Source: Paenibacillus azoreducens (GTDB taxonomy: Bacteria > Bacillota > Bacilli > Paenibacillales > Paenibacillaceae). Taken from it: a stretch of 64,000 nucleotides of DNA. The notes below the pieces were generated by a model. The model had not been told where the DNA came from and made no database searches. It saw only the letters and a list, made by a program, of their open reading frames with translations. Both the position numbers and the translations under genes were made by a program. This document shows positions 16,776-32,847 of this stretch, in pieces. Where the stretch lies: assembly GCF_021654775.1 (NCBI RefSeq), contig NZ_AP025343.1, positions 5,423,501 through 5,487,500 of the forward strand. The letters are read 5' to 3'. Positions within the stretch are counted from its first letter, which is position 1, and every line of letters starts with the position of its first letter.

Positions 16776-18326
16776 TTATGCAAACAAGCCGGCATCCATC
16801 ATTCGTAAATCCGGCGAGATTAATGGCCTTTCCGCCATATGGGCCAGGATATCTTCCTCCAGCCGTACCCCTGGAGCTATTTCCGTAAGCAAAAGCTGCC
16901 CCTCATACAATGAAAATACAGCCCTTTCCGTCACGTAGACAACCTCTGTCCCTTTGCTTGCTGCGTAAGAAGCATTAAAGGTCAGATGTTCGACACGGGA
17001 TACGAATTTGCGCAGGCTTCCTTCCCGCAGAATATGCAAGCGGCCGTTTTCCAGCTTCGTTAGCAGCCCCCCTGCCGTAAAGGTAGAGCAAAATACAACT
17101 TTACGGGCATTTTGGCTAATGTTAATAAATCCGCCGCATCCTGTCAGCCTCCCACCGTACCGGCTGACATTTACATTGCCCGTTCCGTCCGCTTCCGCCA
17201 TGCCCAAGCAGGCCACATCCACTCCGCCTCCGTCCAAAAAGTCAAACTGCGCAGGCTGATCCAGAATCGCTTCAGCCCATGCGGAAGCGCCAAAGCTAAG
17301 CCCTCTGGCGGGCGTACCTCCGACAGGTCCTGATTCAAGCAGCAGTGTGATGTCCGTTCTCCCGGCTTCTCGGCCTGCCGCTCCGACGCCTTCCGGCAGC
17401 CCGATTCCCAGGTTCACGACCTGATGCGGATCAATCTCAGCCAACGCACGCCGGGCAATGACAAGCCTTTCCGCTTCCGGCGGAGCAGGGGGATTCCCTT
17501 GGTCCGCTGCCCCAGGCGGCAGATGGCCCGAATAAGCCGGATTATCCTGTTCGGCAAAGGTCATGGCATGCTGCTCCGCATCCGCGACGACGATCACGTC
17601 AACCATGATTCCGGGCACAATCACATTTCTCGGCGGAATCGTCCGGGCGGGAACAATCCGTTCCACCTGCGCGACAACCATGCCGCCGCTGTTACGCGCA
17701 GCCTGGGCCAGCGCCAGCATTTCCAGCGTAACCGCCTCCCTTTCCATAGAGAGATTGCCGCATTCGTCCGCAGTAGTCCCCCGAATCAACGCGCAATGAA
17801 CCGGAAAAGCGTGATAAAACAGCTGCTCCTTTCCGCCAATCGTTATGAACTCTACGATGTCCTCGACGGTTCGCCCGTTGAGCTTGCCGCCGCCATGCCG
17901 CGGATCGACAAAGGTATGAAGCCCGACCGGCGTCAGCGTTCCGGGGCGGCCTGCCGCGATGTCGCGGTATAGATGAGTAATGACGCCCTGCGGCAAATTA
18001 TAGGCTTCGATCCGGTTGGAAGTAGCAAGCGCGCCGAGCTTGGGCGCCAGACCCCAATGGCCGCCGATGACCCTGCGCAGCATCCCTTCATGCGCCAAAT
18101 GATTGATGCCTCGCGTTCCTCCATCTCCTTGCCCCGCGGCAAAGACAACTGTCAGGTTCTGCGGCGAGCCCTCCCGCAAATAACGGCGCTCAAGCGCCGC
18201 CGTCAATGCTTCCGGATGAGCGCAGCCGACAAAACCGCCGACCGCAAGCGTGGCCGCATCGGGAAGAAGGAGCATCGCTTCATCCGCCGTCATCAGCCGG
18301 GCAGGTTCACGTTTCCGACGGTTCAA
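16776..18326 (-). CDS. Fused-subunit acyl-CoA:carboxylate CoA-transferase (YdiF/Pct type)
   Basis: 516 residues with both SpoIVB-like CoA-transferase halves in one chain, as in propionate CoA-transferase and E. coli YdiF. The N-half has [14 protein letters not shown]; the C-half has [20 protein letters not shown] with the catalytic Glu that forms the acyl/CoA thioester, followed by [19 protein letters not shown]. It exchanges CoA between acetate/propionate/acetoacetate-like acids. The start is a TTG overlapping the SDR stop (TTGA) with GGAGGG eight bases upstream. Last gene of the ten-gene operon from livK. Confidence 0.88.
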
Positions 18327-19066
18327 ATGTTCAGCCCTCCGTTAACCTCCAAAACGGTGCCATTTACATAATTGGCTGCATCTGATGCAAGGTAAAGATA
18401 GGCCTCCGCGACATCTTCCGGCAGTCCGAGCCGGCGGAGCGGAACCTTCTCGCTCATGGCGCTGACAACTTTCTCCGGCATCTTGGCCACCATTTCGGTT
18501 GCGATAAAACCGGGAGCGACGGCGTTCACGCAAACGCCCTTATACCCGAGCTCCCGGGCCCATGTTTTCGTCATGCCGATGACCCCTGCTTTGGCGGCCG
18601 CATAATTGGTTTGGCCCAAATTGCCCTGCAGGCCGACGATCGAGCTTGTATTAATGATCTTGCCCTGCCCGCGGGCCGTCATGTGAGGCGCGGCATGTTT
18701 CGTGCAATAATAGACGCCGCTCAAGTTGACGTCGATCACCTGCTTCCACTGCTCCGTTGTCATTTTGGACAGCATCGCGTCCCGGGTAATGCCTGCATTG
18801 TTGATCAAAATATCGATGCAGCCGTATTCGGCAATAACCGATTCGATCAGCGCCTGTACGCTGCTTTCATCCGATACATCCGTTTCAATAAAACGCACCT
18901 GCGGCCGCTTGCTTTCCTCCAGCGTTTCGATCAGATTCCGGCCTGCTTCTCCGTTGAAATCCGCCGCCACAACCTGCGCGCCATGCGCGAGGAACAGCCG
19001 GACTGCCGCCCAGCCGATGCCTCCCGCTCCGCCTGTTATAACCGCCGTTTTCCCCTGCAATCTCAT
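18323..19066 (-). CDS. Short-chain dehydrogenase (FabG/3-hydroxyacyl type)
   Basis: 247 residues, a classical [17 protein letters not shown] (NAD(P) glycine motif), NNAG, catalytic Ser in INTSSIVG, and [13 protein letters not shown] with Tyr/Lys. The C-terminal EVNGGLNI and the NxxGxT-like pattern resemble 3-oxoacyl-ACP or acetoacetyl-CoA reductases. The segment [11 protein letters not shown] has an Asp after the second strand, favouring NAD. GGAGGG is eight bases before the ATG, which overlaps the hydrolase stop (ATGA). In this operon it probably interconverts a 3-hydroxy and 3-oxo acid or its CoA ester (inference). Confidence 0.88.
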
Positions 19067-19965
19067 GCTTCGGTCCCTCCCTGCAGAAACTTCTCGACGG
19101 CAGCCAACAGCTGCCTGGAATCATCGACAAGCGGTGAATGTCCGCATCCCGTCAGAATAACTTCATGCGCTCTTCCGCCAAAATCGTCCAGCAATTCCCG
19201 GTGCATTTGCTCAGTAATGACCATATCCCTTTCTCCGCGCAGCACAAGCACCGGCACCTGGATCCGGTCCACCAGTCCCGAGCCGTAAGCGGCTTCATGA
19301 TCCATATGGCTGATGTTAAAGGTATTTAGCGCCTCATAAATATCCATCAGGTTCCGCTGGGTCAATATATCCTCCAAATACGCCTCGTACCTGGCCTCAT
19401 CCGGCTGGTTGCGGTCGTATATGACCGAGTTGAACAACGTCTGCATCGATGTTTTATCGCGCTCTTCATTGGCTTTTTGCACCCATTGATTGCGGGCTGA
19501 CTTTCTGATTCCATCAGCGGAAACAATTCGTTTCGTCACATCCGGCATTCCGTCCGGACCGTCCTCGTAGAAGGGGTATCCTCTGGTCGACATGGAAGCT
19601 AGCAATACCAGCTTGGAAACCCGCTGCGGGTAGCGGGCGGCCAAATCCATCGATACACCCCCGCCTGTCGACCACCCCCATACGATGCAGGACGACAAAC
19701 CGAGTAGGTCCATAAATGCATTCACATCATCGGTATACATCTCGATACGGGCGGCGGGCTCATGGTATGTCGATATGCCGAATCCCCGCATATCGACGGC
19801 GTATATTTTATATTTTGCATCCATATGTTCGAGTACGATATCCCAGTGCGCTGAAGAGTTCATATTCCCATGTATAAGCAGCACAGTTTCATTGCCGCCC
19901 TCCCGCTCCCGGTAACCTAACCGCTCCCCGCTGGGCAATTCTATTGATTTAAGTTCCACGGACAT
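19063..19965 (-). CDS. Alpha/beta hydrolase
   Basis: 300 residues from ATG 19965 (GGGGGGAA upstream). VLLIHGNMNSS is the oxyanion loop, VWGWSTGGGVSMDLA holds the nucleophile Ser, LRGERDMV the acid, and LTGCGHSPLVDD the His. The group includes esterases, lactonases and C-C bond hydrolases. No signal peptide. It overlaps the KAS III-like gene by 25 bases and the SDR by four, so it belongs to the same operon. Substrate could be the imported ester or lactone that feeds the CoA steps; that is inference. Confidence 0.85.
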   Translation of the reverse strand: MSVELKSIELPSGERLGYREREGGNETVLLIHGNMNSSAHWDIVLEHMDAKYKIYAVDMRGFGISTYHEPAARIEMYTDDVNAFMDLLGLSSCIVWGWSTGGGVSMDLAARYPQRVSKLVLLASMSTRGYPFYEDGPDGMPDVTKRIVSADGIRKSARNQWVQKANEERDKTSMQTLFNSVIYDRNQPDEARYEAYLEDILTQRNLMDIYEALNTFNISHMDHEAAYGSGLVDRIQVPVLVLRGERDMVITEQMHRELLDDFGGRAHEVILTGCGHSPLVDDSRQLLAAVEKFLQGGTEA

Positions 19966-21032
19966 GACGATTCCCCCCATTTTAAAGTTAATGCTCCCCA
20001 TGCATAACCGATGCCCGCAGCTGCCAGCACCGTCACTTGCCCCGGAGCCATGCGGCTTTCCCTGCCGAGCAGCTCCAGATGAATCACCGGATCAAACTGT
20101 CCCATATGACCGTATTCCTCCAAATAAATCGCCCGCTCTTCCGGGATACCCAACGTATCAAGCACGTACCTGTGCGCGGAACGCTTCATATGGAGCAGCC
20201 CCATATAATCAATCTCCGAAACCGTCGAACCGCTCGCCTGCACAGAATCCGTAACGACCTGGACAAAACGCTGCATGGACAGCTGATCCAAGCGTTGTTT
20301 CATTCCTTCCGGGTCGGCAACCCGAAATTTAGGCTCTCCGGCTGCAATCAATTCGGCCGTAAGCGGCTGCTTCGTTCCCCCTGCGCATACGATGACGTCT
20401 TCACTAAACGAGCCGTCGGTCATCAGCGCGGATTCCATGACCTCCGGATAAGCCGGGCCTGCGCCCCGCTGCAGAATCAGCGCACCGCCGCCTGCCGCCA
20501 AATTGATCATAAATCTTGTTCCCGGATCAAGCGGATCAATCAAATCGCCGTTGCGGTAACCCCCAGCAAGCAGCACGGTCCGAATGGAGGGATCGCCCAG
20601 CATCATGGCCTTGGCCGTTTTCACGCCGGCAATGGCCGTACAGCAGCGCAGAGCCATATCATACCCATAAGCGCGCTTCGCCCCAATCTCCTCCTGAAGC
20701 TTCAGGCTCGCTGTCCACACCGGATATTCCTTATATTCCTCACCGATATAGATGACCAGATCAATTTCCATCGGATCCATACCGCAGCGCTCTATAGCCT
20801 GCCTTGCCGCATGGATGCCCATTGCGCATGTGCCGTCATCCGGGCCCGGTACCGGCTTTTGGATAATGCCAAGTTTCGTTTCGACGATATGCTGCGGAAT
20901 TCCGGCGGCGGCCGCAATTTCCAAACTGCTCATGGTGTCTCTTGGCACGTATAGTCCCACTGAAATAAGCCGGATCGCTTCATCCGCTGCCGGGTTCGCC
21001 TTTCGTTCATTCCCCGCCTGCTTGCCCATCAT
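19941..21032 (-). CDS. KAS III-like (3-oxoacyl-ACP synthase III family) thiolase-fold enzyme
   Basis: 363 residues with the thiolase fold of FabH/HMG-CoA synthase relatives. ALRCCTAIAGVKTAKAMM contains the active-site Cys, LLHMKRSAHRYVLDTLGI the first His. Where FabH has Asn in a GNT motif this protein has EYGHMGQFD, placing a His there, as in KAS III-like acyltransferases that act outside fatty acid synthesis. Expected chemistry is acyl transfer or condensation with acetyl- or malonyl-type thioesters. Second-strand context (transporter, hydrolase, SDR, CoA-transferase, distant thiolase) is catabolic-looking, unusual for a KAS III. Confidence 0.82.
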   Translation of the reverse strand: MMGKQAGNERKANPAADEAIRLISVGLYVPRDTMSSLEIAAAAGIPQHIVETKLGIIQKPVPGPDDGTCAMGIHAARQAIERCGMDPMEIDLVIYIGEEYKEYPVWTASLKLQEEIGAKRAYGYDMALRCCTAIAGVKTAKAMMLGDPSIRTVLLAGGYRNGDLIDPLDPGTRFMINLAAGGGALILQRGAGPAYPEVMESALMTDGSFSEDVIVCAGGTKQPLTAELIAAGEPKFRVADPEGMKQRLDQLSMQRFVQVVTDSVQASGSTVSEIDYMGLLHMKRSAHRYVLDTLGIPEERAIYLEEYGHMGQFDPVIHLELLGRESRMAPGQVTVLAAAGIGYAWGALTLKWGESSCPWNLNQ

Positions 21033-21207
21033 GTTTTTGCCCCCGTTCCAGCATATTTTTCATGTAAAGAGCGGCTTCATCCAGCGACACCATCGTCAAT
21101 TCGACCTGCTGCTGCACATGCGTTACCTTAATCCGCCATCCGCTCGGGCTCTCGCAGGGGGTGCATCTCAGCACGAAAGAACAAACCGACATCCGATCCT
21201 CATTCAT
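21007..21207 (-). CDS. 66-aa protein of unknown function
   Basis: The frame starts at ATG 21207 behind GGGGGGAAGC and overlaps livM's stop (ATGA) and 26 bases of the KAS III-like start, so it is embedded in the operon with tight coupling. The sequence MNEDRMSVCSFVLRCTPCES has three cysteines early, then a beta-like GWRIKVTHVQQQVELTMVSL and a helix SLDEAALYMKNML. I do not recognise it. It could be a metal- or CoA-enzyme accessory subunit. Confidence 0.65.
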   Translation of the reverse strand: MNEDRMSVCSFVLRCTPCESPSGWRIKVTHVQQQVELTMVSLDEAALYMKNMLERGQKHDGQAGGE

Positions 21208-22283
21208 GAAGCTTCCCCCCCGTTTTCGGCCTTTAAGCGCTTCCGCCGCCACGCCATAAGCCATTTGTGTACAGTACCGACGATTCCCGATGGAAAAACA
21301 AGGACAACAACGATATACAGCAGTCCAAAAAAGATGATCCACCGTTCAAAAATAGGATGAATGCCCGCCAGATCCGTCAAAAACTGATGCGCCCATTCAA
21401 TCACCGCCGCTCCGATCAGGGACCCGAACAAAGTACCTATCCCTCCGATCATCGTCATCAGCAGCGCATTTAACGTCATATCCATCGAAAATACCGTCGT
21501 ATTTACGAATCTGAGCGTAAGCACATAAAGCGAACCGCTCACGCTTGCCGCCACACCGGCAACCACCGTTGCTATGACTTTGTAATGAACCACCTTGTAG
21601 CCAAGCGATTCCGCCCGCTGTTCATTTTCGCGGATGGCCTGCAGCACCCGCCCAAACGGCGAGCTTGTAAAACGCCTGAGCAAAAAGAACACAAGCACCA
21701 TTGCCGCCAGGGAAGTCAGATACAGCGTCGACCTGTCCCTCATCGGTTCAGGAATGGAAAATGTAAACCCGTCACTTCCCCTGGTCAGAGAACGCCATTT
21801 CTCGGCCGCGACAAGCAGCAAACCCGCAAAGGCCAATGTCAGCATCGCATAGAAATGGCTTTTTAGACGCAGCGAAAGCATGCCGACGACATAACTGAGC
21901 AAAGCCGCGAGCGCCATGCCTGCCAGAACGGATAAAAACAGCATTGGAAGGGTTGCTTCGAATCTCTTCATGAAAATTCCGGTCGCATAAGCCCCCAAAC
22001 CGAAAAACATGGCATGACCGAAAGAAACGATGCCGGTGTATCCCAGCAGCAGATCATAACTCATGGCAAAAATCGCAAAAATAAAAATCTGCGTCAGCAA
22101 AATAAACAAACTCCTCGAGTCCGATACAAACGGAACTGCAACCAGTGCCATGACCAGCACAAATGCAGTCGCGTTAAACCAGCGTTTAGAAGCCGCATAA
22201 GAAGGAGCAGCCAGGCCGATGCGGGAGCGTCTCTGCCGTGTCGCGGCCGGAGCCGCCTCTTTCAGATCGGTGTTTCCGCTCAT
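21204..22283 (-). CDS. livM: LivM-type ABC transporter permease
   Basis: 359 residues with about nine hydrophobic helices and the LivM signature YDLLLGYTGIVSFGHAMFFGLGAYATG, plus RAIRENEQRAESLGYKVVHYK, the cytoplasmic EAA-type loop of the LIV/HAAT family. With LivH it forms the channel for branched-chain or other hydrophobic amino acids, amides or aromatic acids. The first 40 residues are a polar extension. ATG preceded by GGGGGGAGG; ATGA overlap with livH. Confidence 0.9.
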   Translation of the reverse strand: MSGNTDLKEAAPAATRQRRSRIGLAAPSYAASKRWFNATAFVLVMALVAVPFVSDSRSLFILLTQIFIFAIFAMSYDLLLGYTGIVSFGHAMFFGLGAYATGIFMKRFEATLPMLFLSVLAGMALAALLSYVVGMLSLRLKSHFYAMLTLAFAGLLLVAAEKWRSLTRGSDGFTFSIPEPMRDRSTLYLTSLAAMVLVFFLLRRFTSSPFGRVLQAIRENEQRAESLGYKVVHYKVIATVVAGVAASVSGSLYVLTLRFVNTTVFSMDMTLNALLMTMIGGIGTLFGSLIGAAVIEWAHQFLTDLAGIHPIFERWIIFFGLLYIVVVLVFPSGIVGTVHKWLMAWRRKRLKAENGGEAS

Positions 22284-23149
22284 GCACCTCCCCCCTTTAC
22301 CCCGAACAATCCGGACGGCTTCACCAACAAAACGACAATCATCAGCAGCATATTCGCCGCCAGGGAAAGATCAGGAACATAATAGGCCATCAAAGCTCCC
22401 GACAAGCCGACGAGTATGGAAGCCAGCGCCGATCCCTGGACACTGCCCATGCCGCCGATGACAACGACAATAAAGGCCAGAATGGCAAATTGCATCCCCA
22501 TTTCCGAAAAAATGACGCCGGAATACGGGGCGAGCAGCGCCCCTCCAAGAGCCGCAAGCCCTGCGCCAAACACAAATACAAGCGAAAATATCATGCGGAT
22601 ATTGATGCCAAGCGCCTGCACCATCTCCGGATTATGCACGCCCGCACGGACGATCAGCCCGATGCGGGTCTTTTTTAATAGCAGCAGCAAACCCAGATAT
22701 ACGAGCGCGCCTATCAAAATAATAAACAGGCGGTATTTGATCAAAATAACTCCCGCGACTTCCCAGCTTCCGTTTAGGAGCGGCGGCACCTCAGCCTTCA
22801 GCGGATTAGGCGTGAACACGACCTTAAGCATCTCGCTTAATACAAGCATGACGCCAAGCGTAACCAGTATTTGCCTGACATGATTGCCGTACATCGGCCT
22901 GATGACCGCCCGTTCCATGATCCAACCGAGCAGCATGCCGGCCAAAACGGCACCGACAACGGCTATGATGAATGAGCCGCTAGCCGCATACAACCAGACG
23001 CCGGCATAAGCTCCCCAGGCAAACAATCCGCCGTGCGCAAAATTCAGCACGCTCATCAGACCAAAAATCAGCGTCAGCCCCGCTGCCAGCAAAAAGACAA
23101 GCATGCCCGTTGCCAAACCGTTGACGATTAGATTTAACAATTGATTCAC
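22280..23149 (-). CDS. livH: LivH-type ABC transporter permease
   Basis: 289 residues from GTG 23149 (AAAGGAGGG seven bases upstream; a longer frame exists but has no ribosome-binding site). Eight or so helices, with the LivH marks LTLIFGLMSVLNFAHGGLFA, RAVIRPMYGNHVRQILVTLG and RAGVHNPEMVQALGINI. Partner of LivM in the importer. Lies between livF and livM in the order livK-G-F-H-M, 25 bases after livF. Confidence 0.9.
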   Translation of the reverse strand: MNQLLNLIVNGLATGMLVFLLAAGLTLIFGLMSVLNFAHGGLFAWGAYAGVWLYAASGSFIIAVVGAVLAGMLLGWIMERAVIRPMYGNHVRQILVTLGVMLVLSEMLKVVFTPNPLKAEVPPLLNGSWEVAGVILIKYRLFIILIGALVYLGLLLLLKKTRIGLIVRAGVHNPEMVQALGINIRMIFSLVFVFGAGLAALGGALLAPYSGVIFSEMGMQFAILAFIVVVIGGMGSVQGSALASILVGLSGALMAYYVPDLSLAANMLLMIVVLLVKPSGLFGVKGGGA

Positions 23150-23174
23150 ACGATACCCTCCTTTAAGAGGTAGT

Positions 23175-23879
23175 TCAGGCAATCCCTAAATATTTGCGGC
23201 GGAGCTCTTCATTTTCATGCAAAGAGGCCATTGGGCCGGCGCTGACGATCATTCCCTCGTCCATTAAGTAATACTTGTCGCCGATGGTGCCTGCCATCAT
23301 AAAATTTTGTTCGACCAGCAGCACCGTCGTCCGCTCTTTCATCTGCAGGATGGCGTCCATCAGCTTCTTGACCATGATGGGAGCCAGCCCTTTGCTCGGC
23401 TCGTCGATCAGCAGCAATTCGCTATTGTTGACGTATGCCCTTGCTATGGCGAGCATCTGCTTTTGCCCGCCGCTCAGCAGTCCGCTTTTCCGGTCCCGGA
23501 ACTTCACCAAATCAGGGAAAAGCTCATGCATCCATTCGAGCCTTTCGGCCGCACCGGCATCTTTGTGCCGAAGCGCAATTCGCAATGTCTCGCCTACCGT
23601 CAAATCGGCGAATATCCCCTGATCCTCAGGCACATAGCCGATTCCGCGGCGCGCGATCTGATGGGCGGCAAGCTTTTGAATCGGCTCTCCATTAAACGCA
23701 ATCCTTCCTTGAGCAGCCGGATTCAGTCCCATGATCGTCCGCAGCGTTGTCGTTTTTCCGGCGCCGTTTCGTCCCAGGAGCACGGTAATCTCGCCTTTTT
23801 CCGCCTGCATCGTCACCCCTTGCAGGATGTGGAACTGCCCGATATAAGTTTCAACCGATTCCAACTGCAGCAGCGTCAT
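23175..23879 (-). CDS. livF: LivF-type ABC ATPase
   Basis: 234 residues: Walker A LLGRNGAGKTTTLRT, Q-loop, signature LLSGGQKQMLAIARA, Walker B LLLIDEPSKGLAP and switch His region LLVEQNF. The EDQGIFADLTVGETL segment is typical of LivF. GGGAGG is eight bases upstream of the ATG; the start overlaps the livG end by 29 bases. Confidence 0.92.
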   Translation of the reverse strand: MTLLQLESVETYIGQFHILQGVTMQAEKGEITVLLGRNGAGKTTTLRTIMGLNPAAQGRIAFNGEPIQKLAAHQIARRGIGYVPEDQGIFADLTVGETLRIALRHKDAGAAERLEWMHELFPDLVKFRDRKSGLLSGGQKQMLAIARAYVNNSELLLIDEPSKGLAPIMVKKLMDAILQMKERTTVLLVEQNFMMAGTIGDKYYLMDEGMIVSAGPMASLHENEELRRKYLGIA

Positions 23880-24693
23880 CGTACAATCCTCCCAAATATG
23901 CGGCCTGCACCGTTTCGTTGTTCATAATGTCGGCAGGAGGCCCGCTTGCAAGCAAACTGCCGTTAAACAAAACGGCGATGCTGTCCGACAAGTCCAAAAC
24001 CATCTCCATCTTGTGCTCGATCAAAATAATGGTACGGCTGCCCTCCTGCTTGAGCGCCCGAATGACTTCCAAAATCTGCGGAACTTCCTCCACCGAAATT
24101 CCGGCCGTAGGTTCGTCAAGCAGCAGCAATTCGGCGCGAAGGGCCAACAGCATGGCGATTTCCAGCTTTCGTTTCTCCCCATGCGCCAGTTGGACCGCAA
24201 GCGCGCCAGCTTTGCCGCCAAGCCGCACCAGCTCAAGCAGTCCAAGCGCCTCTTCCTCCAGCTTCCTGTACCTGTGCAGCGAAGAAAAGAAGTTGTACCG
24301 GACACCGGCACGGGATTGAACGGCCAGCCTGACGTTTTCCAGCACGCTGAGATTGGGAAAGACGTTCGTGATTTGAAAGGATCTGCCCATGCCAAGCCGG
24401 GTCCGTTCGTACGGGGCCATCCGCGTTACGTCCTGCCCTTTGAAATAAATGCTGCCGAAAGAAGGTTTGAGCTGTCCGCTGAGCAGATTAAACAATGTGG
24501 TTTTGCCCGCGCCGTTCGGGCCGATAATCGATGTAAAAGATTTCTCCTTCACTTCCAAATCGACATCCTGTACGGCCTTATGACCGCCAAAGGCGATTGT
24601 CAGCCCTTTTGTTGCCAAAACGGTTTCGGTAAAAGAAGCCGTTTCTGCCGACGCTGCGCCCGATGTTCCTGCGGTTTCCGTTTGTTCCGTCAT
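23851..24693 (-). CDS. livG: LivG-type ABC ATPase
   Basis: 280 residues from ATG 24693 behind GAGGAGGGG. Walker A IIGPNGAGKTTLFNLL, the LivG-specific GMGRSFQITNVFPNLSVLENV, a degenerate signature VQLAHGEKRKLEIAMLLA (LAHGEK in place of LSGGQ, normal for LivG), Walker B LLLLDEPTAGIS. An extra Thr/Ala-rich N-terminal 30 residues precede the ATPase core. Energises the importer with LivF. Confidence 0.92.
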   Translation of the reverse strand: MTEQTETAGTSGAASAETASFTETVLATKGLTIAFGGHKAVQDVDLEVKEKSFTSIIGPNGAGKTTLFNLLSGQLKPSFGSIYFKGQDVTRMAPYERTRLGMGRSFQITNVFPNLSVLENVRLAVQSRAGVRYNFFSSLHRYRKLEEEALGLLELVRLGGKAGALAVQLAHGEKRKLEIAMLLALRAELLLLDEPTAGISVEEVPQILEVIRALKQEGSRTIILIEHKMEMVLDLSDSIAVLFNGSLLASGPPADIMNNETVQAAYLGGLYDDAAAVGIG

Positions 24694-24750
24694 ACGCTCC
24701 CCTCCTCGATTGTTCTCCGTCATTTCCGGATGAACGGTCCGGGATGCAGC

Positions 24751-24786: not shown

Positions 24787-26085
24787 CTAACGTTTATTGG
24801 TGATTGGCGGCGCGGTTTCCTCCGGCGTCAATTCGCGTATCAGCACAGGCACCGGATAATCGGTCCCGTCCTGCTTTTCCAGCTTGATTGCATACAAAGC
24901 CTGAAGCGCCTGATGGTCTTCCGCCCGGAACGTCATTTTGCCCTTGGGCGTATCGAAAGACATGCCTTCCATCGCCGTAATTAACCGGTCCGTATCCGAT
25001 ACGTCGCCGTTTGTTTTCTTAATGGCTTCGATGATCGAAATCGCCGCAGACATGCCTCCCGGCGTAAACAGATCGGGCAGTTCGCCATTAAAGCGTTTCT
25101 TATGCTCCTCCACCAGCCATTTGTTGATATCGTTATTCGGCAAGGTATGGTAATACACCGAAAATCCTTCCATGCCGACCAAATCGCCCATCGTTTTGAG
25201 AGCGGCGATATCCGGCGCGCCCGTCGAAATCTTGATTCCCTGCTCCTGTACCTTCATATCCTGCAGCTGTTTCCATGGGGAGTTGGCTCCTGCCCACACG
25301 ATAAACAAGTACTCGGGTTTTGCTTTCACGATTTTTTGGATATTGGCCGTAAAATCCGTTGCGGTCGCATCGGCGTATTGCTCCTCTACGATGTCGGCGC
25401 CCAGCTTAACCGCCGCATCCTTAAATGCGGCGATTCCGTCGCGCCCGAAAGCGCTGTCAGGTGCAAACGTAGCGATTTTCACGCCTTTGCCCGCAATGGC
25501 CGCCGCGCCGGCTACGGCATCCTGCGAAGAATTGCGCGCGGTGCGGAACACGTATTTATTCCATTGGTCGCCTGTGATGCTGTCCGCAACGGCCGGCTCC
25601 ACGACCATGATTTTCTTCGCTTCCTCGGCAAGCGGCAGCACCGCCAGCGTATCGCCCGAGCTGGATGAACCAACCAGGAAATCCACCTTGTCGGTTTCAA
25701 GCAGTTTGGTCGCCTTTTTCACCGCCACATCCGGTTTGGTTTCCGTATCTTCGAACACAAATTCGATTTTGTGTCCGTCGACTTCCCGCGTTCCGCCTGT
25801 GGCGTAATCTACGCCAAGTTCGAAGCCGCGCGTGGTTTGTTTCCCGTAGCTTTCAAGCGCGCCAGACAAGGAAGCAAGCACGCCGATTTTAATGGTTTTG
25901 CCGTTTCCGCCCGCATCCTTAGCCGCCGAATCCTTCCCTTCCGTTTTCTGCTCCGTTTGCGGCTCGGCTGCCGTTTCCTTGTTTCCTCCGCTGCTCGAGC
26001 AGGCGGCCGTAAACATAAGCATCATAATCAACGCGGACACAACGCCAAGCCGTCCTAAGCGCGTTTTTGATTTTTTCATGGACAA
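24787..26085 (-). CDS. livK: LIV-type substrate-binding lipoprotein
   Basis: 432 residues with a lipoprotein signal: hydrophobic stretch ending MLMFTAAC, Cys being the lipidated residue, then a Ser/Gly/Glu/Lys-rich linker. The mature domain is type I periplasmic binding (Peripla_BP_6): IKIGVLASLSGALESYGKQTTRG ... VGSSSSGDTLAVLPLAEEAKK ... FAPDSAFGRDGIAAFKD. This group binds amino acids, amides or aromatic acids; the pocket residues do not tell me which. The TTG at 26085 sits six bases after GGGGGG; an ATG two codons later is the alternative. First gene of the ten-gene operon, 51 bases downstream of the TTGCAA direct repeat. Confidence 0.9.
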   Translation of the reverse strand: MSMKKSKTRLGRLGVVSALIMMLMFTAACSSSGGNKETAAEPQTEQKTEGKDSAAKDAGGNGKTIKIGVLASLSGALESYGKQTTRGFELGVDYATGGTREVDGHKIEFVFEDTETKPDVAVKKATKLLETDKVDFLVGSSSSGDTLAVLPLAEEAKKIMVVEPAVADSITGDQWNKYVFRTARNSSQDAVAGAAAIAGKGVKIATFAPDSAFGRDGIAAFKDAAVKLGADIVEEQYADATATDFTANIQKIVKAKPEYLFIVWAGANSPWKQLQDMKVQEQGIKISTGAPDIAALKTMGDLVGMEGFSVYYHTLPNNDINKWLVEEHKKRFNGELPDLFTPGGMSAAISIIEAIKKTNGDVSDTDRLITAMEGMSFDTPKGKMTFRAEDHQALQALYAIKLEKQDGTDYPVPVLIRELTPEETAPPITNKR

Positions 26086-26129
26086 CAGGATCCCCCCTAT
26101 GACTCTTCATTCCCGCTCATCATAAAAGG

Positions 26130-26159
26130 GCCCGGTTGCAAAATAGTTGCAAGCCGGGC
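26130..26159 (-). terminator. Terminator of the STAND regulator gene
   Basis: GCCCGG-TTGCAA / TTGCAA-CCGGGC hairpin followed by CCTTTTAT on the minus strand, 18 bases after the regulator's stop. It contains the TTGCAA repeat, so one sequence may serve as both operator and terminator. Confidence 0.6.
26136..26152 (-). promoter_or_regulatory. TTGCAA-N5-TTGCAA direct repeat before livK
   Basis: Two TTGCAA hexamers with an 11-bp period, 51-67 bases upstream of livK. Read in the direction of transcription it matches 16 of 19 positions of the site before the thiolase gene (TTGCAACnnnTTTGCAACC). An 11-bp period is that of SARP-type regulators. Confidence 0.65.
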
Positions 26160-26177
26160 GATCATGGAAAAAATCGT

Positions 26178-29100
26178 TTATGCGTTCTCCTCGCTGCAGC
26201 GTGTGAACAGCTCGCGGATCGATGCCATAGGCTCGATGCCCAGCTCCTGCGCCAATGCGTCCGCCGCGCGCTGATGCCATTTCAGAGCCTGATGGCGGTT
26301 GCCAAGCTGCAGATGGCATTCCATCAGGAGGCGGTATGCTTCCTCCCAACAGCGGTCTTTCTCCAACATCGCTTCAGCCCAGCGGATCGCCTTGTCATAA
26401 AGGCCCCGCGCCGAATAAATCTGGCTCAGACGCTCTGCCCCACGCAGAAAAAGCACCTGAAGGCGTTCACGTTCTTCGATGCACCAGTCATCGTATCTTC
26501 GTTCGGGCATGTAATCCCCTTTGTACAGAAGCAGCGCCTGCTCCAGCAAAACCGCGGCTTCATCGCGGCTGCCCGACTCCAGTCCTTGCAGCGTCAGCCG
26601 TTCAAACTCCACAATATCCAGCGTCCAACTGGCCTGAAGGTTCAACCGGTAGAATTGTCCATCGCGGACCACAAAATAAGGATCGCTTCTGACCCGCCGA
26701 TGCGGCTCAAGCGCAGAATGGAGCGCATTCAGCGCCACTTTGAAATCACGGTTGGCGGCTTTCTCGTCCGCTTCCGGGAACAGATACAGCAGCAGCTCTT
26801 CTTTGCTGACCTGATATCTCCGTTTGGTGACAAGCAGTTGAAACAGCTCCTTCGCCTTGCCGCGCTGCCAGTCCTTATCCAGCACCACCCGGTTCCCAAG
26901 GCGGACTCGAAACGCCCCCAGCGTCTCGATATGCAGCGTATATCCCGGATGATAGGTCAGCTTCTCCATCCCCAGCTCCGTCAGAATCGCAGCAGGATTC
27001 GGTCCGCCTATCCCCTGCCTGGCAGCCTCCAGCAGAAGCGGAATAAGCTGCTGCGGATCCGTTGGACCCAGCAGCGTTCGGGATGTAAACAAAAATCCGT
27101 ACCCTTCCCGGACCGCCAGCTCCAAAAAATGCTCCATGCTGACCGCAAATCGTCCATCCTGCTCCTGGCGGTAAGCCGTCATGGCAAGCCAAAGCTCGCT
27201 CAGCGCCAAACCTAATCGGTCCCCGCAGGCCTCGTATCTACCTTTGGCTTCTTCGAATATCGTATCGGCTTCCTGCCAACGTCCGCTCTCGTACAATGCA
27301 ATCCCCATGCTAAGGCGGATGAGCGAGGAAAGCCAGCCGTCCAAAGCCTGTTCCGTGTACTGCAGCGCGGCTTCCCCGTATCTCAACGCCGCTTCGCAGT
27401 GTTGTTCCCGCCCGTGCAGCAGGCATAATCCCATATTCGGTTCAGCCGTGCCGCGGGCGATGTCGATCCTTTTCATAATGGCCAGCGCCGCATGATAACA
27501 TTCCCCAGCCACTTTGACATCGTAAACGCCCGTCAGTTGGGCCGCGTGCCCCATTCTGATCCAGCCGCAAGCTTCCACATAAGGGGCCTTCAGCCGGATG
27601 CCCTGCATCATGCCCGCTTCCGCCGCCGCTTTCGCACGCAGCGGTTCACCGCTCAGGCTGTCAATCAGGGATTGCAGCAGATCGATTTCCCGATGTGAAC
27701 GGGACAACGCCCGGCTATGATAACTGCTTCCTCGGAATAAGCCGCCCTTTTCTCCTTCCAGTCTTTGTGCTTGTTCAAGCAAATTCCGCGCCGTTTTCAG
27801 CTTGCCTGTGCGGAGCGCCAGCCGTGCCTCGAGCAATAAATCCCGGCTGCCCTGGTCCAGTTCGAGCGAACGCGCAGCCCACTGCCCCGCCTCGGTTCCC
27901 TGACCCTGGTTCAATTTGTTCTCCGCCATCATCGCATATAACCGCGCCAGCCGCTTCCGGTCACGGTCCGGCTCCGCCCCATACATTCCCAAACCGCCGG
28001 CATAGAGATAGGGGGCAGAGAGAGATGAAGCGGCATGGGATTCGGCGAGCGCAATCGCGTTTACAAGCAGCGGCTCGGCTTTCCCAGGCTGGATCGTGTC
28101 GAGATAAAGCATCGCTTGCCCCTCAAGAGCAAGGCCATGGACAACCGCATTGCCCGTTTCTCGCGCAAAGCTCTCCGCCTTGCGGTAACCGGCCATCGCC
28201 GCTTCGTATTCGCAGCGATACCGCAAAATATCGCCTTCAAGCACATACAGGTAAGGCATCCGGTTCTTCAGCCGCTCCGGGATCGGTCCAAGGCAGCGAA
28301 GCACGGCCTCCAAATGCCCGCCCCGCACCAGTTCGGCTCCACCGGCAGCGAGCAGTTGGGCCATTTCCTCCGGATCATCCAATTCCGCGGCGTGGGAAAG
28401 CGCAAGTTCGATCCGCCCTCTTGCCGCAAATACCTGCACCGCTTGCCTGTGCAAAGACAATCGCCACTGCGGCTGGCGCCGCAGCTGGTCCTGCAGAAAT
28501 TGCCGGAACAGCGCGTGATAACGGAACTGGCGGTCATCGACGGCGCTCAGAAATCCGTTCTGACAAAGCGCCGCGAGCAGGGCGTGCGAGCCCTGCCTGC
28601 CGCAAACCGCATCGCACCATTCACCTGTCAGCTCGTCAAAAATACTCGTCTCCAGCATAAAGGTCCTCATAACCGAATTCTGTTTTTGAAACAGCTCGGC
28701 CGCCAGATAATGAAACAGATCCTCAAGCGATTCCCGCGGGGCAGTCAAAATGCTTTCCAGCGAATCTTTCGATGCCGACAGCCGCTGCCAAATGAGCTGG
28801 ATCGCGATAATCCAACCTTCCGTAAATGCATACATGGCCTCTGCCTGCGGCTCGGTAAGCGGGTAATTGTAATAATCCGAAAATAAAACTTCAATGTCCT
28901 CCGCCGAAAAAGCGAGATCCGCACGCGACAGCTCAAGCACTTCCCCGCGGACGCGCATGGCGGCCAAGCCCTCCCAGTCCGGCTTCGTCCGGGACGAAAT
29001 GACCAAACGCAAGCCGCCGCAAGCCGGCAGATACGAAATCACGTATTGCATCCATGCGTCAATCCATTCGCTATGTTCAACGGAATGGTAGTCATCCATG

Positions 29101-29501
29101 CACAAAATGATGTTTCCATCCAACTTCAAACCTTCATTTAAAAATAAGTCCGCCAAGGCATACACGTCCTCCAAGCCGGCTATCCTTGCACTCCCCAGCT
29201 CAAGCAGCAGGGCTTCGCCAAATCCGGGCACACTCGCGCGCAATGTCGCAGTTAAATGGAGCAAAAAAGGGAGGAGATCATGATCCTGCGGGGATATGCT
29301 GTACCATGCATAACGGCAACCGCATTGCCTCACATAAGAAGACAATGCCGTTGTTTTGCCGAATCCGGGTCCGGATGCCACAATGGTAAGCGGCGTTTCC
29401 GGAATATACCTCAGCCGTTTCATCAAATCCGGCCGCTGCAGCCAAATCTTTTTGGCAGGAGGCGCCATCAGCTTCATTTTCAGTATGCGGCTGCTCTTCA
29501 T
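26178..29501 (-). CDS. MalT-like STAND ATPase regulator with C-terminal winged helix and BTAD domain
   Basis: 1107 residues from ATG 29501 (MKSSRILKMKLMAPP; AGAGAGGGGG upstream). N-terminus is the MalT-type STAND module: RPDLMKRL, Walker A VASGPGFGKTTAL, Walker B-like IILCMDDYHSVEHSEW and RADLAFSAEDIEVLF. The middle (about 380-850) is helical repeats of TPR/MalT type. The C-terminus lacks a LuxR helix-turn-helix; instead LETLGAFRVRLGNRVVL ... WQRGKAKELFQLLVTKRR ... ANRDFKVALNALHSAL is an OmpR-like winged helix followed by a BTAD domain, as in SARP activators. It would act as an ATP-dependent, inducer-driven activator. It is flanked by the liv operon and the thiolase/ligase unit. Confidence 0.9.
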   Translation of the reverse strand: MKSSRILKMKLMAPPAKKIWLQRPDLMKRLRYIPETPLTIVASGPGFGKTTALSSYVRQCGCRYAWYSISPQDHDLLPFLLHLTATLRASVPGFGEALLLELGSARIAGLEDVYALADLFLNEGLKLDGNIILCMDDYHSVEHSEWIDAWMQYVISYLPACGGLRLVISSRTKPDWEGLAAMRVRGEVLELSRADLAFSAEDIEVLFSDYYNYPLTEPQAEAMYAFTEGWIIAIQLIWQRLSASKDSLESILTAPRESLEDLFHYLAAELFQKQNSVMRTFMLETSIFDELTGEWCDAVCGRQGSHALLAALCQNGFLSAVDDRQFRYHALFRQFLQDQLRRQPQWRLSLHRQAVQVFAARGRIELALSHAAELDDPEEMAQLLAAGGAELVRGGHLEAVLRCLGPIPERLKNRMPYLYVLEGDILRYRCEYEAAMAGYRKAESFARETGNAVVHGLALEGQAMLYLDTIQPGKAEPLLVNAIALAESHAASSLSAPYLYAGGLGMYGAEPDRDRKRLARLYAMMAENKLNQGQGTEAGQWAARSLELDQGSRDLLLEARLALRTGKLKTARNLLEQAQRLEGEKGGLFRGSSYHSRALSRSHREIDLLQSLIDSLSGEPLRAKAAAEAGMMQGIRLKAPYVEACGWIRMGHAAQLTGVYDVKVAGECYHAALAIMKRIDIARGTAEPNMGLCLLHGREQHCEAALRYGEAALQYTEQALDGWLSSLIRLSMGIALYESGRWQEADTIFEEAKGRYEACGDRLGLALSELWLAMTAYRQEQDGRFAVSMEHFLELAVREGYGFLFTSRTLLGPTDPQQLIPLLLEAARQGIGGPNPAAILTELGMEKLTYHPGYTLHIETLGAFRVRLGNRVVLDKDWQRGKAKELFQLLVTKRRYQVSKEELLLYLFPEADEKAANRDFKVALNALHSALEPHRRVRSDPYFVVRDGQFYRLNLQASWTLDIVEFERLTLQGLESGSRDEAAVLLEQALLLYKGDYMPERRYDDWCIEERERLQVLFLRGAERLSQIYSARGLYDKAIRWAEAMLEKDRCWEEAYRLLMECHLQLGNRHQALKWHQRAADALAQELGIEPMASIRELFTRCSEENA

Positions 29502-29652
29502 GCACAACCCCCTCTCTTTGCCATAATTTCCTTCAATTGTAGCATAGTTCCACATTGTTTGACAGCGTTTACATTTTGTTTTTCATTTCTGATCATCGTC
29601 TGCTGCAAGACTTGGTTACGCCAGAAACGCATATATTCTTTATTTCAAAATA

Positions 29653-29896
29653 ACCCCACAAAGAGTATCGGAAAAAAGTCCGACGCCTGAAGGGCGCTTT
29701 TGCAAAGCAAAAGTACTGAGAGTATCGGAAAGAAGTCCGACGACTCTCGCAGAGAGGCGCTTTTGCGGAGCAAAAGTACGGAGTGACGTGTAGCCTTTGA
29801 AGCTTATTCCGAATACTTTGCGGGGACCCCGGAAATTCAACCCCACAAAGTGACGCATGACCTTTGAAGCTTATTCCGATTACTTTGCGGGGCCCC
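29653..29896. repeat. Two pairs of duplicated intergenic repeats
   Basis: Unit A (29653-29715 and 29718-29779) runs GAGTATCGGAAAnAAGTCCG to GCGCTTTTGC-GCAAAAGTAC and ends in a CTTTTGC/GCAAAAG hairpin. Unit B (29782-29826 and 29850-29896) shares CCTTTGAAGCTTATTCCGA and ACTTTGCGGGG. The copies differ by a few bases. They fill the space between the regulator gene and the ligase; no gene is seen in 29502-29966. Confidence 0.85.
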
Positions 29897-29966
29897 CTTG
29901 TCTGATATGTCAAAAAAGCAGCAGGACTGCCATCAGGCGGTCCAAACTGCTCCATAAAGATGCCGC

Positions 29967-31610
29967 TTACTCTTCCATTCCTCCCGCAAACAGTGGGAAA
30001 AGGCTTTTTTTGTCCAGCTTGCCCACCGCTGTCTTCGGCAGTTCTTCGATAAACTTGATCAGCTTGGGGATTTTGTACTTTGCAATCGATAACGCGCAGT
30101 ATGCCTGCAGCGCTTCCGCCGTCGGCTGACAGCCGGGCTTCGGAACGATGGCCGCCGCCACGATTTCTCCCCATTTAGGGTGCTCCACGCCAACGACTGC
30201 CGCTGCGCCCACTTCGGGGTGGCGTTCCAGAAGATGCTCCACCTCCAAAGGATACACGTTTTCTCCGCCCGTAATGATCATATCCTTCTTGCGGCCGACG
30301 ATATAGAAATAGCCATCCTTGTCCCGCTTCGCCAAATCCCCGGTTAAAAACCAGCCGTCCAGCCAGGCCTCGGCCGTAGCCTCCTCGTTGTTCCAATAAC
30401 TATGAAACAGATGTTTCCCCCTTAAAGCCAGTTCACCTACTTCTTCAGGTCCCGTAACATCCCGGCCGGCACCGATCAGCCGCACATCGTTAAACAGCAT
30501 CGGCAGTCCGACGGAGCCCGGTTTCAGAAGCGCTTCGCCGCAATCGATAACAAAATTGTTCGGGCCAGACTCCGTTGCGCCGTAACCTTCCTTGAAGGGC
30601 AGGCAGCGGGCGGCGAATGAGGCGTACACCGTCATCGGACAGGGCGCTCCGCCTGACAGGAAGGTTTTCATTGTGCGAAACTTCGCATCGGCAAACCGCG
30701 GACTTTGCACCAGCAAATGATACATCGTAGGCACCATCAGCACGATCGTGCATTGCTCCCGTTCCAGCAGCCCGATCATGCGCTCCGGCTGGAATGACTG
30801 CACGCAGATGACCTTGCCCCCGCTCATAAGCACAGGCAGCGTCAAAGCATTGATGCCGCCCGTATGAAACATCGGCAGCACCGTTGGCGTCACGTCTGTT
30901 TCCGTGAGCTGCCAGGTTATGGCGGTATTGAGCGCATTCCAGTACAGGGAACGGGCCGTCAGCACAACTCCTTTCGGCTTGCCGGTCGTACCGCCCGTGT
31001 AGATCATCAGCCACGGAATATCCGCATCATCCTCGCGCGCTGCCGTTTCCGTCTCCGGAAATATACACATCTCTTCATCGGCTGCGGCGAGCCGTGCCCT
31101 TTCCAGTTCGATCGACTCATCCAGCTGGTCCAGCGGCAGCCAAGAGCATGCCGAATCGACGGGCAATCCGGGGAATGCCGTCAGGCTTTCGGCGTGATAC
31201 CAGACGATCCTGGGCGTGCAATCCGTTAAAATATGCCGGAGCTCTTCGACATGCAGGCGCCAGTTCAGCGGAACGAGCATCGCCCCCAGCCGGCGGCAGG
31301 CAAACAGCAGCACAAGCAGCCGGCTGTCGTTCGGCGTAAGAATCCCTATACGGTCTCCCTGCCGCACGCCAAGTTTGAAGAGGCTCCGTGCGGCCATGTC
31401 AACCTTTTCGGCCAACTCGCGATAGGTCAGGGTAAACCCCGTATCTTCGTCCATCAGTGCGGTACGATCAGCCGACAACATGCATCTGCGTTCAAACCAT
31501 CCATCAGGTCTAGCGGCAGCGCCGGAGTCAAATTGAGCCCCGTTCAGCTCTCCGGTATCCGCATAAGCTGCATGCCAATTACGGCCGTTCCACGATAAGT
31601 GCGACACCAT
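29967..31610 (-). CDS. AMP-forming acyl-CoA synthetase
   Basis: About 547 residues of the ANL superfamily. IYTGGTTGKPKGVVLT is the P-loop (A3), GYGATESGPNNF A5, GWFLTGDLAKRDKDGYFYIVGRKKDMI A7-A8, and PKTAVGKLDKK carries the catalytic Lys (A10). It adenylates a carboxylate and transfers it to CoA. Acid specificity is unclear; length and motifs match medium-chain and aromatic acid ligases. ATG 31610 (MVSHLSWNGRNW) after GGGAGGCGG overlaps the thiolase end by 32 bases, so they form one unit. Confidence 0.88.
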   Translation of the reverse strand: MVSHLSWNGRNWHAAYADTGELNGAQFDSGAAARPDGWFERRCMLSADRTALMDEDTGFTLTYRELAEKVDMAARSLFKLGVRQGDRIGILTPNDSRLLVLLFACRRLGAMLVPLNWRLHVEELRHILTDCTPRIVWYHAESLTAFPGLPVDSACSWLPLDQLDESIELERARLAAADEEMCIFPETETAAREDDADIPWLMIYTGGTTGKPKGVVLTARSLYWNALNTAITWQLTETDVTPTVLPMFHTGGINALTLPVLMSGGKVICVQSFQPERMIGLLEREQCTIVLMVPTMYHLLVQSPRFADAKFRTMKTFLSGGAPCPMTVYASFAARCLPFKEGYGATESGPNNFVIDCGEALLKPGSVGLPMLFNDVRLIGAGRDVTGPEEVGELALRGKHLFHSYWNNEEATAEAWLDGWFLTGDLAKRDKDGYFYIVGRKKDMIITGGENVYPLEVEHLLERHPEVGAAAVVGVEHPKWGEIVAAAIVPKPGCQPTAEALQAYCALSIAKYKIPKLIKFIEELPKTAVGKLDKKSLFPLFAGGMEE

Positions 31611-32757
31611 GACCGCCTCCCACACATAATGCGGCTGCTCCAAAGCGGCCCTGCCTGCGTTTAAGTTCATGCAAAAGGGTAACGAGTATCCGCGCACCGC
31701 TGGCTCCGATCGGATGGCCCAGCGCAATCGCCCCGCCATTCACGTTGACCCGCTCCGAACCGATGCCAAGCTCCTGAAGGCAGGCGATTGTTTGGGAAGC
31801 GAATGCTTCATTGATTTCAATCAGATCCAATTGCTCAAGCTTAAGCCCTGCTTGCGCCAACGCCTTCCGCAGCGCGGGAACGGGACCAAGGCCCATCCAC
31901 TGCGGCTCGACTCCGACCGTTGCATAACCCTTGATTAATCCCAAAGGTTCAAGCCCCTGGTCCTGCGCTTCTTCCGTCGAAGCCACCAGCACGGCTGCAG
32001 CCCCGTCATTGATCCCGGAGGCGTTGCCGGCCGTTACGGTTCCGCCTGCTTCAAAGGCAGGCTTCAGCTTGGCAAGCGCCTCCGGCGTCGTGCCGAAACG
32101 CGGGTGCTCGTCGCGTTCGGCCATCCGCACGCCGGCGCGTTCTCGGACCTCAACCGGCACGATCTCATCGGCGAAACGTCCGCTGCGCACCGCCGCCTCG
32201 GCCCGCTGCTGGCTGAGCGCCGCATAAGCATCCTGCGCTTCGCGGCTGATGCCAAACCGCTCGGCAAGCCGTTCGGCCGTGATGCCCATGGCCTGCCGCG
32301 AAATCGCGCAGGTTAATCCATCATGCAGGGCCGTATCCAGCAGCTCCGCATTCCCGTATTTAACGCCTGCGCGCAGGCCTGGAAGCACATGCGGGGCTTG
32401 GGTCATATTCTCCATGCCGCCGGCGACCGCCCAGCATACATCTCCGCTGCGCACCGCACGCGCCGCCTCTATCACGGCCAGCAGGCCCGAACCGCATACC
32501 AGGCTTACGGAAGCGGCCGGCGCCGTAAAGGGCAGACCTGCCGCGACCGAAGCCTGCCGCGCCGGATTCATCCCCAGGCCGGCTTGAAGCACATGTCCCA
32601 TCCATACATGATCCACCCGTTCAAGACCTAAGTTTGCCCTCCGGCAAACCGCCCCGATAACCGCTGCACCCAACTCCACGGCGCCCACGCGCCCGAACTG
32701 TCCTTGAAATGAGCCGATCGGCGTCCGAGCGGCACTTACGATCACAGCTTCTTTCAT
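31579..32757 (-). CDS. Thiolase (acetyl-CoA acetyltransferase)
   Basis: 392 residues. VSAARTPIGSFQG starts the fold; SLVCGSGLLAVIEAA contains the acyl-accepting Cys, NEAFASQTI the NEAF motif, GGAIALGHPIGASGARI the catalytic His loop, and CVGGGHGVALI the second Cys. This is the biosynthetic/degradative acetoacetyl-CoA thiolase signature. ATG 32757 (MKEAVIVS) lies behind GAGGTGG. First gene of a two-gene unit with the CoA ligase. It is preceded by a hairpin-forming inverted repeat and by the TTGCAA direct repeat. Confidence 0.92.
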   Translation of the reverse strand: MKEAVIVSAARTPIGSFQGQFGRVGAVELGAAVIGAVCRRANLGLERVDHVWMGHVLQAGLGMNPARQASVAAGLPFTAPAASVSLVCGSGLLAVIEAARAVRSGDVCWAVAGGMENMTQAPHVLPGLRAGVKYGNAELLDTALHDGLTCAISRQAMGITAERLAERFGISREAQDAYAALSQQRAEAAVRSGRFADEIVPVEVRERAGVRMAERDEHPRFGTTPEALAKLKPAFEAGGTVTAGNASGINDGAAAVLVASTEEAQDQGLEPLGLIKGYATVGVEPQWMGLGPVPALRKALAQAGLKLEQLDLIEINEAFASQTIACLQELGIGSERVNVNGGAIALGHPIGASGARILVTLLHELKRRQGRFGAAALCVGGGHGVALIVERP

Positions 32758-32771
32758 TACATCCACCTCAT

Positions 32772-32813
32772 GTTCTCAATTCTGCGTATTCGGTATTGCC
32801 AACAATTGAGAAC
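32772..32813 (-). promoter_or_regulatory. 10-bp inverted repeat in the thiolase leader
   Basis: GTTCTCAATT at both ends (second inverted as AATTGAGAAC) separated by 22 bases and ending three bases before the Shine-Dalgarno. It may be an operator or an mRNA hairpin that controls translation. Confidence 0.55.
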
Positions 32814-32830
32814 AGTTAACATGATACGGG

Positions 32831-32847
32831 TTGCAAACGGGTTGCAA
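32831..32847 (-). promoter_or_regulatory. TTGCAA-N5-TTGCAA direct repeat before thiolase gene
   Basis: Same hexamers and same 11-bp period as at 26136-26152, here within a longer direct repeat GGGTTGCAAnC. 74-90 bases upstream of the thiolase start. Confidence 0.65.

Follow-up and report, generated by a model that had tools for sequence, protein, structure and literature searches.

A large regulator gene of Paenibacillus azoreducens lies between two metabolic operons whose promoters share a repeat, which raises the question of whether a regulator, its operator and its targets can be paired from sequence alone. The stretch analyzed, hereafter the window, comprises 64,000 nucleotides (contig NZ_AP025343.1, positions 5,423,501 to 5,487,500). 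An earlier note on it had claimed that TTGCAA-N5-TTGCAA, found before a livK-like gene and a thiolase gene, is the target of the protein encoded between them, a MalT-like ATPase ending in a winged helix and a BTAD domain. Conservation and co-occurrence supported this pairing, with the repeat as a putative operator (box). From the computed site, its layout and conservation, its co-occurrence with the regulator, its targets and the protein folds, it was deduced that a MalT-like sensor ending in a SARP module very probably activates polyhydroxybutyrate (PHB)/3-hydroxybutyrate catabolism through TGYAACY-N4-TGYAACY.

Both copies of TTGCAA-N5-TTGCAA were found exactly where the earlier note had placed them, at 26136-26152 and 32831-32847, and no third exact copy lies within the 64-kb window. 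In the 7,316,152-base genome the pattern occurs at two places, the livK and thiolase promoters, while a reversed control pattern gave no hits. Read along transcription, on the minus strand, the sites are identical at 16 of 19 positions, which reproduces the earlier count. TTGCAA is palindromic, so that an inverted-repeat reading is also possible and the window strain alone cannot separate the two. The direct repeat proposed in the note was settled by the intergenic regions of relatives. These carry the same element with C or T at the third position, the common form being TGYAACY-N4-TGYAACY with a period of 11 bp, and the change to T (TGTAAC) destroys the palindrome while leaving the direct repeat intact. 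In the window, box 1 is TGCAACTATTTTGCAACC (26134..26151, minus strand; a heptamer pair with an 11-bp period that precedes the livK operon) and box 2 is TGCAACCCGTTTGCAACC (32829..32846, minus strand; upstream of the thiolase/acyl-CoA ligase operon). An inverted repeat, GTTCTCAATT-N22-AATTGAGAAC, was also observed at 32772-32813, in the interval from box 2 to the thiolase start. One of its arms is disrupted in the sister genome (L001), and the repeat may have arisen recently as a second operator or be fortuitous.

A scan with the regulator protein yielded eight loci, seven of them Paenibacillus with orthologs at 40-88% identity (loci and genomes are designated by L and G numbers). The gene order is mostly kept: thiolase, AMP ligase, regulator, livK-G-F-H-M, KAS III-like gene, depolymerase, short-chain dehydrogenase/reductase (SDR) and CoA transferase. 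Within the stretches examined, L002 and L006 showed no thiolase, and L002, L006 and L007 no CoA transferase. The sites were present before the orthologous operons, where their absence had been named as grounds for dismissing the proposal. In all, 32 loci were read (the window, L001, 14 from the family and 16 from the order; L006, from the same genome as L139, was dropped from the counts). These held 52 boxes of the first pattern, every one oriented along transcription, and 61 (30 + 22 + 9) when the N4 form was admitted. With G271 left out, 30 of 31 loci carry a box ahead of the thiolase or ligase gene that lies upstream of the regulator, L149 being the exception. All 23 Paenibacillales loci having livK and the regulator carry one ahead of livK; 22 were so classed, and the other is L150, whose regulator match was split and whose box the script had grouped under 'oth'. 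Seven loci (L142-L148) lack the liv genes; here the regulator abuts the KAS gene with no intervening box, and a third box follows the SDR gene.

Since the heptamers were the selection criterion, their invariance proves nothing. The -10-like hexamer was not selected, and it starts 9 nt past the box in both site classes. In the window it is TATGAT (26119..26124, minus strand) past box 1, at an offset common to the relatives, and TTAACT (32814..32819, minus strand) past box 2. Among distinct sequences (24 thiolase-side, 18 livK-side) it is of the TATGAT type before livK and of the TTAACT, TTTACT or TACAAA type before the ligase operon. At the usual spacing, TATAAT was matched at 4 or 5 of 6 positions in 49 of the 61 sites. 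For the -35 element, 16-18 bp from the -10, the match to TTGACA was at most 3/6 in 54 of the 61 and above 4/6 in none. The sequence upstream of the box showed little conservation.

The pairing of site and regulator was next assessed genome-wide. In eight regulator genomes, TGYAACYNNNYTGYAACY gave 19 hits, 16 of which are the two operon sites of each genome, oriented along transcription, and the reversed control gave six; the frequent occurrence at random places that the note had considered fatal was thus not seen in regulator-bearing genomes. Among the 394 genomes of the family set, a same-strand pair within 10 kb was found in 14. The regulator (E up to 1e-60) was found in 16, namely these 14, G260 and G271; of the two boxes in G260, one is exact and the other of the relaxed form. 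Fifteen were counted as carrying a (near) full-length regulator, with the match in G264 beginning at residue 133 and one stop in the draft sequence of each of G279 and G293. A close exact pair was present in 14 of these 15 and in none of the 379 others (Fisher p 7.6e-25, uncorrected for genome kinship). The sixteenth genome, G271 (locus L116), has a decayed cluster in which the thiolase is split and the regulator is in fragments; livK-G-F-H was not found at this locus, nor was a box, the best match there having three mismatches. The site and the regulator co-occur and are lost together.

The protein itself comprises 1125 residues (26178..29555, minus strand), with a MalT-like STAND nucleoside triphosphatase (NTPase), a TPR solenoid and a C-terminal OmpR-type winged helix plus BTAD. 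The BTAD domain (PF03704) matches residues 979-1117 (E 1.1e-19), and the whole module occupies residues about 870-1125. A structure model of this module had a pLDDT of 93, and its fold search returned AfsR and EmbR as the best solved matches; a PDB sequence search with the C-terminal piece matched AfsR weakly (E 0.13). The MalT model NF003420 scored 203 bits over residues 26-468, below its curated cut-off of 537, and the best full-length Foldseek match was 8bob (E 8.7e-16). No LuxR-type helix-turn-helix (HTH) was among the Pfam matches, the C terminus being winged HTH plus BTAD instead. On these models, the regulator is a MalT-like body with a C-terminal SARP module of the AfsR/EmbR-type fold, which bears out the domain assignment of the note. 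Databases name members of the family only 'BTAD domain-containing putative transcriptional regulator' and similar.

The putatively regulated genes, all on the minus strand, point to a single pathway. The box-1 operon begins with the livK-like periplasmic binding protein gene (24787..26085; PF13458), followed by livG- and livF-like ABC ATPases (23851..24723 and 23175..23879) and livH- and livM-like permeases (22280..23182 and 21204..22283). It continues with a KAS III-like protein (19941..21032; PRK06840, 440 bits versus a cut-off of 315), a member of the intracellular short-chain-length polyhydroxyalkanoate (PHA) depolymerase family (19063..20001; NF050089, 402 bits versus 300), an SDR oxidoreductase (18323..19066) and a CoA transferase resembling FadX and 3-oxoacid CoA-transferase (16776..18326; below the Staph_FadX cut-off, 354 versus 750). 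The best NCBIfam model for the SDR was FabG (309 versus a cut-off of 296), and we infer a candidate 3-hydroxybutyrate dehydrogenase. The box-2 operon holds the acetyl-CoA C-acyltransferase (thiolase; 31579..32766; TIGR01930, 458 versus 240) as first gene and an AMP-forming acyl-CoA ligase (29967..31739). The best reading of these annotations is PHB/3-hydroxybutyrate catabolism. In L149 (G445), the sole box near the regulator was observed before a methylisocitrate lyase gene, prpB (532 versus 353; minus strand, 12188 on the reverse complement), which suggests a link to propionate or to odd-chain PHA monomers.

This assignment was extended by boxes remote from the cluster. An exact box precedes a secreted type-1 PHB depolymerase in G449 (334 versus 150). 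In L142-L148, G265 and G273 a box precedes a secreted hydrolase whose sole NCBIfam match, in the three members scanned, was PhaZ7 at 24-26 bits versus a cut-off of 450. Depolymerase genes were sought in 61 genomes with the regulator (formerly so in G271), and the 600 bp ahead of each were checked for a box, up to one mismatch being allowed. Type-1 depolymerases (NF050058) numbered 18 in 14 genomes, and 14 of the 18 had a box, 6 of them exact. Close PhaZ7-like homologs (at least 70% identity) had a box in 16 of 16 cases, 11 of them exact and 15 also with a -10 match of at least 4/6, while three distant homologs (32-36%) had none. A PhaZ7-like gene fragment elsewhere in G271 (L264) keeps a one-mismatch box despite the decayed cluster. 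The background was a single hit among 239,716 other positions of these loci and none among 239,096 positions from the paralog loci. Three type-1 genes were found in regulator-less genomes (80 of the 148 listed), none with a box (best 4-5 mismatches). From their sequences and sites, the PhaZ7-like secreted hydrolases, an alpha/beta hydrolase family with only distant similarity to PhaZ7 (as at L220, L224 and L142:14553-15872), are a candidate new extracellular PHA depolymerase family.

At the class level, 69 of 398 genomes, among them that of the window, hold a full or partial relative of the regulator. Forty loci from 38 of the 68 others gave exact along-transcription boxes in 25, one-mismatch boxes in 4 and none in 11; for one of these 11, L187 (G704), a box lies just outside the examined stretch, before an SDR homolog. 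The pattern combined with the -10 spacing gave 56 hits in 61 genomes, compared with 6 for the reversed control, and 33 genomes had a hit; the 28 without comprise 22 of the Brevibacillus type (genus g75, this name and similar ones being taken from named protein hits), G747 and five others. Thirteen of the 56 hits were at previously unseen places. Twelve of these precede regulon homologs, namely livK (4; 44-52%), AMP ligase (6; 45-47%), SDR (1; 58%) and a type-1 PHB depolymerase (1; 52% identity to that of G449), and the thirteenth has no open reading frame (ORF) within 400 bp. An ancient regulon common to Bacilli is probable, in which a chimaeric MalT-STAND/C-terminal-SARP sensor would activate secreted depolymerases, uptake and catabolism of PHB/3-hydroxybutyrate through TGYAACY-N4-TGYAACY.

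In PimR, SanG and PolR, the SARP module is N-terminal. These regulators share with the present system heptameric direct repeats and a SARP domain joined to a LuxR/LAL-related part, and PimR also shares four-nucleotide spacers (PMC10972967). Unlike the present system, they control polyene or nucleoside antibiotic genes. The review PMC10972967 and the structure paper PMC10936776 concern Streptomyces. SARP repeats have a spacing of 11 bp, the 3' repeat is separated from the -10 by 8 bp, and the protein binds as two adjacent protomers, which touch region 4 of sigma (PMC10936776). The present sites share both the 11-bp direct repeats and the distance to the -10, whose hexamer starts 9 nt past the heptamer in both site classes. 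AfsR, the large Streptomyces SARP that recognizes the afs box, has its SARP module at the N terminus, whereas that of the Paenibacillus regulator is C-terminal; its heptamer sequence is also different, and the present host is a member of the Bacillota with catabolic rather than antibiotic targets. MalT, a STAND/LAL activator, shares the N-terminal NTPase and sensor body, but its C-terminal LuxR-type HTH is here replaced by the winged helix and BTAD, and the score is below the MalT cut-off. EmbR of Mycobacterium tuberculosis has an FHA domain in place of the STAND body (PMC10936776). PhaQ of Bacillus megaterium is likewise a PHB-metabolism regulator of a Bacillota, but it represses its own gene and the phasin gene and serves storage rather than degradation (PMC9049629). 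No described regulon for these regulator proteins was found in the open-access literature, a scope that does not prove absence. As far as searched, each part is of a known kind, and what is new is how the parts are combined, in which host group and for which pathway.

A mechanism can be proposed on this basis. The ligand of MalT is maltotriose. In the same way, a ligand from the PHB/3-hydroxybutyrate pathway, so assigned because of the pathway, would be sensed by the NTPase/TPR part and switch the regulator on. Two SARP modules would bind TGYAACY-N4-TGYAACY side by side, and the bound box would stand in for the -35 element, the -10 hexamer beginning 9 nt past it, so that RNA polymerase is recruited in the manner of AfsR. 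Activation is preferred over repression because the sites match the SARP layout (PMC10936776). Box 2 would then drive the thiolase and acyl-CoA ligase, together with the regulator in loci where the ligase gene is its immediate upstream neighbor, while box 1 would drive the Liv-type transporter, the KAS III-like protein, the intracellular PHA depolymerase, the SDR and the CoA transferase. In species having them, secreted PHB depolymerases elsewhere in the genome would also be switched on. The gap between the regulator and the ligase gene directly upstream is at most 139 nt in 39 of 41 loci (one genome being represented twice, by L006 and L139), and the regulator there is probably a member of its own box-2 operon and activates itself. 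Autoregulation in the window is uncertain because the gap is 412 nt and a terminator-like site follows the ligase gene. At 29620-29910 this gap also contains several near-identical short repeats and small palindromes that appear by eye to be similar to repetitive extragenic palindromic (REP) elements.

Several observations weigh against this interpretation. The binding, the direction of control, the inducer and the transporter substrate are deduced rather than computed. Single exact pattern matches in the family are at chance level, with at least one hit in 99 of the 394 genomes and 127 hits versus about 108 for the reversed control (manual count). Some matches are found repeatedly among related genomes ahead of genes that are unrelated or unassigned, and TGTAACCTTTTTGTAACT recurs at 11 places in regulator-less genomes, the two copies examined having no ORF in the following 400 bp. 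Twelve exact hits that lie away from the cluster in genomes with the regulator were examined; three of the first seven precede PHB depolymerase-type genes and four do not, and none of five further hits (L304, L305, L308-L310) precedes a regulon homolog. One extra site recurs in the liv-less group (seven genomes plus a variant in G445; L304, L305 and L310 are from G479, G466 and G445), before an unassigned secreted protein and without a -10 at the usual spacing; it may be chance or the site of another factor. Four of the 18 type-1 depolymerase genes (one of G715, three of G683) lack a box, and only 8 of the 14 with one have a -10 match of at least 4/6 at the usual spacing. One of these 14 was not independent, so the independent count is 13 of 17; among the PhaZ7-like genes, 9 of the 16 (G265, G273 and the liv-less group) had pointed to the family, which leaves 7 of 7. 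Type-1 genes occur in 14 of 61 regulator genomes versus 3 of 80 without (p 0.001), in samples unmatched for relatedness. The window's own genome has neither a type-1 nor a close PhaZ7-like secreted depolymerase, the thiolase of L149 (49% identical) has no box, and L218 has a livK-like gene upstream (51%), again without a box.

A further difficulty is a clade of paralogs. In a tree of 71 regulators (FastTree, with long-branch warnings), the proteins lacking a box fall mostly in one Brevibacillus-type clade of eight rows (L197-L201, L203, L214 and L215), plus L217/L218 and L187. The recognition helix of this clade is essentially unchanged from that of the box clade, and no box was found near its genes, nor did 23 such genomes show one in any part when the -10 constraint was applied. 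Alternative 11-bp direct repeats and other heptamer spacings were sought beside these paralogs, with nothing convincing found. Only positions 903 and 918 differ consistently between the clades, and as neither is in the recognition helix, they were rejected as an explanation for the missing box. The clade may use a different promoter layout or may have lost the function. The earlier note is thus supported for the two operons and their regulator; the PHB/3-hydroxybutyrate pathway and the remote depolymerase targets had gone unseen by it, and this clade does not fit it.

Of the other explanations, binding of the box by a different regulator encoded elsewhere, with the STAND-BTAD gene as a passenger of the cluster, draws on the same clade and on binding being itself a deduction. 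It would be hard to reconcile with the co-occurrence of box pair and regulator (14/15 versus 0/379), their joint decay in G271, the SARP layout of the site beside the SARP fold of the protein, and the remote depolymerase boxes, which go with the regulator (0 of 3 genes without), and was judged very unlikely. A LysR gene adjoins the thiolase operon (33074-33976), but only L001 has an ortholog (95%) in that position, and the LysR-like matches of three further loci are weak (21-36%) and on the other strand; the LysR gene was rejected as the common factor. MalT and EmbR are activators. That the regulator binds the box and represses is conceivable in that a protein overlapping the -35 region could also block RNA polymerase, but promoters with so poor a -35 would need help and AfsR is an activator (PMC10936776), and repression was deemed very unlikely.

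The livK site could instead be the intrinsic terminator of the regulator gene, its likeness to the thiolase site being accidental. It lies just past the regulator stop codon within a stem of 12 pairs and one bulge (window 26130-26159, -19.1 kcal/mol, z -4.76) followed by CCTTTT, and the stem at the livK box of L001 is stronger still (z -9.6). Such a stem was found at only these two of 61 folded sites, the next lowest z being -1.6, while other livK loci have the box and -10 without it. The hairpin was therefore rejected as a conserved feature, and this explanation is highly improbable; in the lineage of the window and L001, the livK box could possibly double as a terminator, a second, lineage-specific use. 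Chance similarity has next to no probability: a match of 16 of 19 positions between two sites of one genome is weak alone and single hits across the family stand at chance level, but the conservation, the whole-genome specificity, the pairs and the depolymerase sites refute it.

The proposed activation of PHB/3-hydroxybutyrate catabolism by the MalT-like regulator through its box assigns a regulator, an operator, a promoter layout and a pathway together to a large and vaguely named protein family. If true, it would place SARP-type, AfsR-like promoter activation outside Actinobacteria and couple it to a metabolic ligand, and Bacilli would supply a SARP system with a probably simple inducer. The box and regulator would predict which Bacilli degrade PHB, and the box would serve as a sequence handle toward new depolymerases and the 3-hydroxybutyrate transporter.

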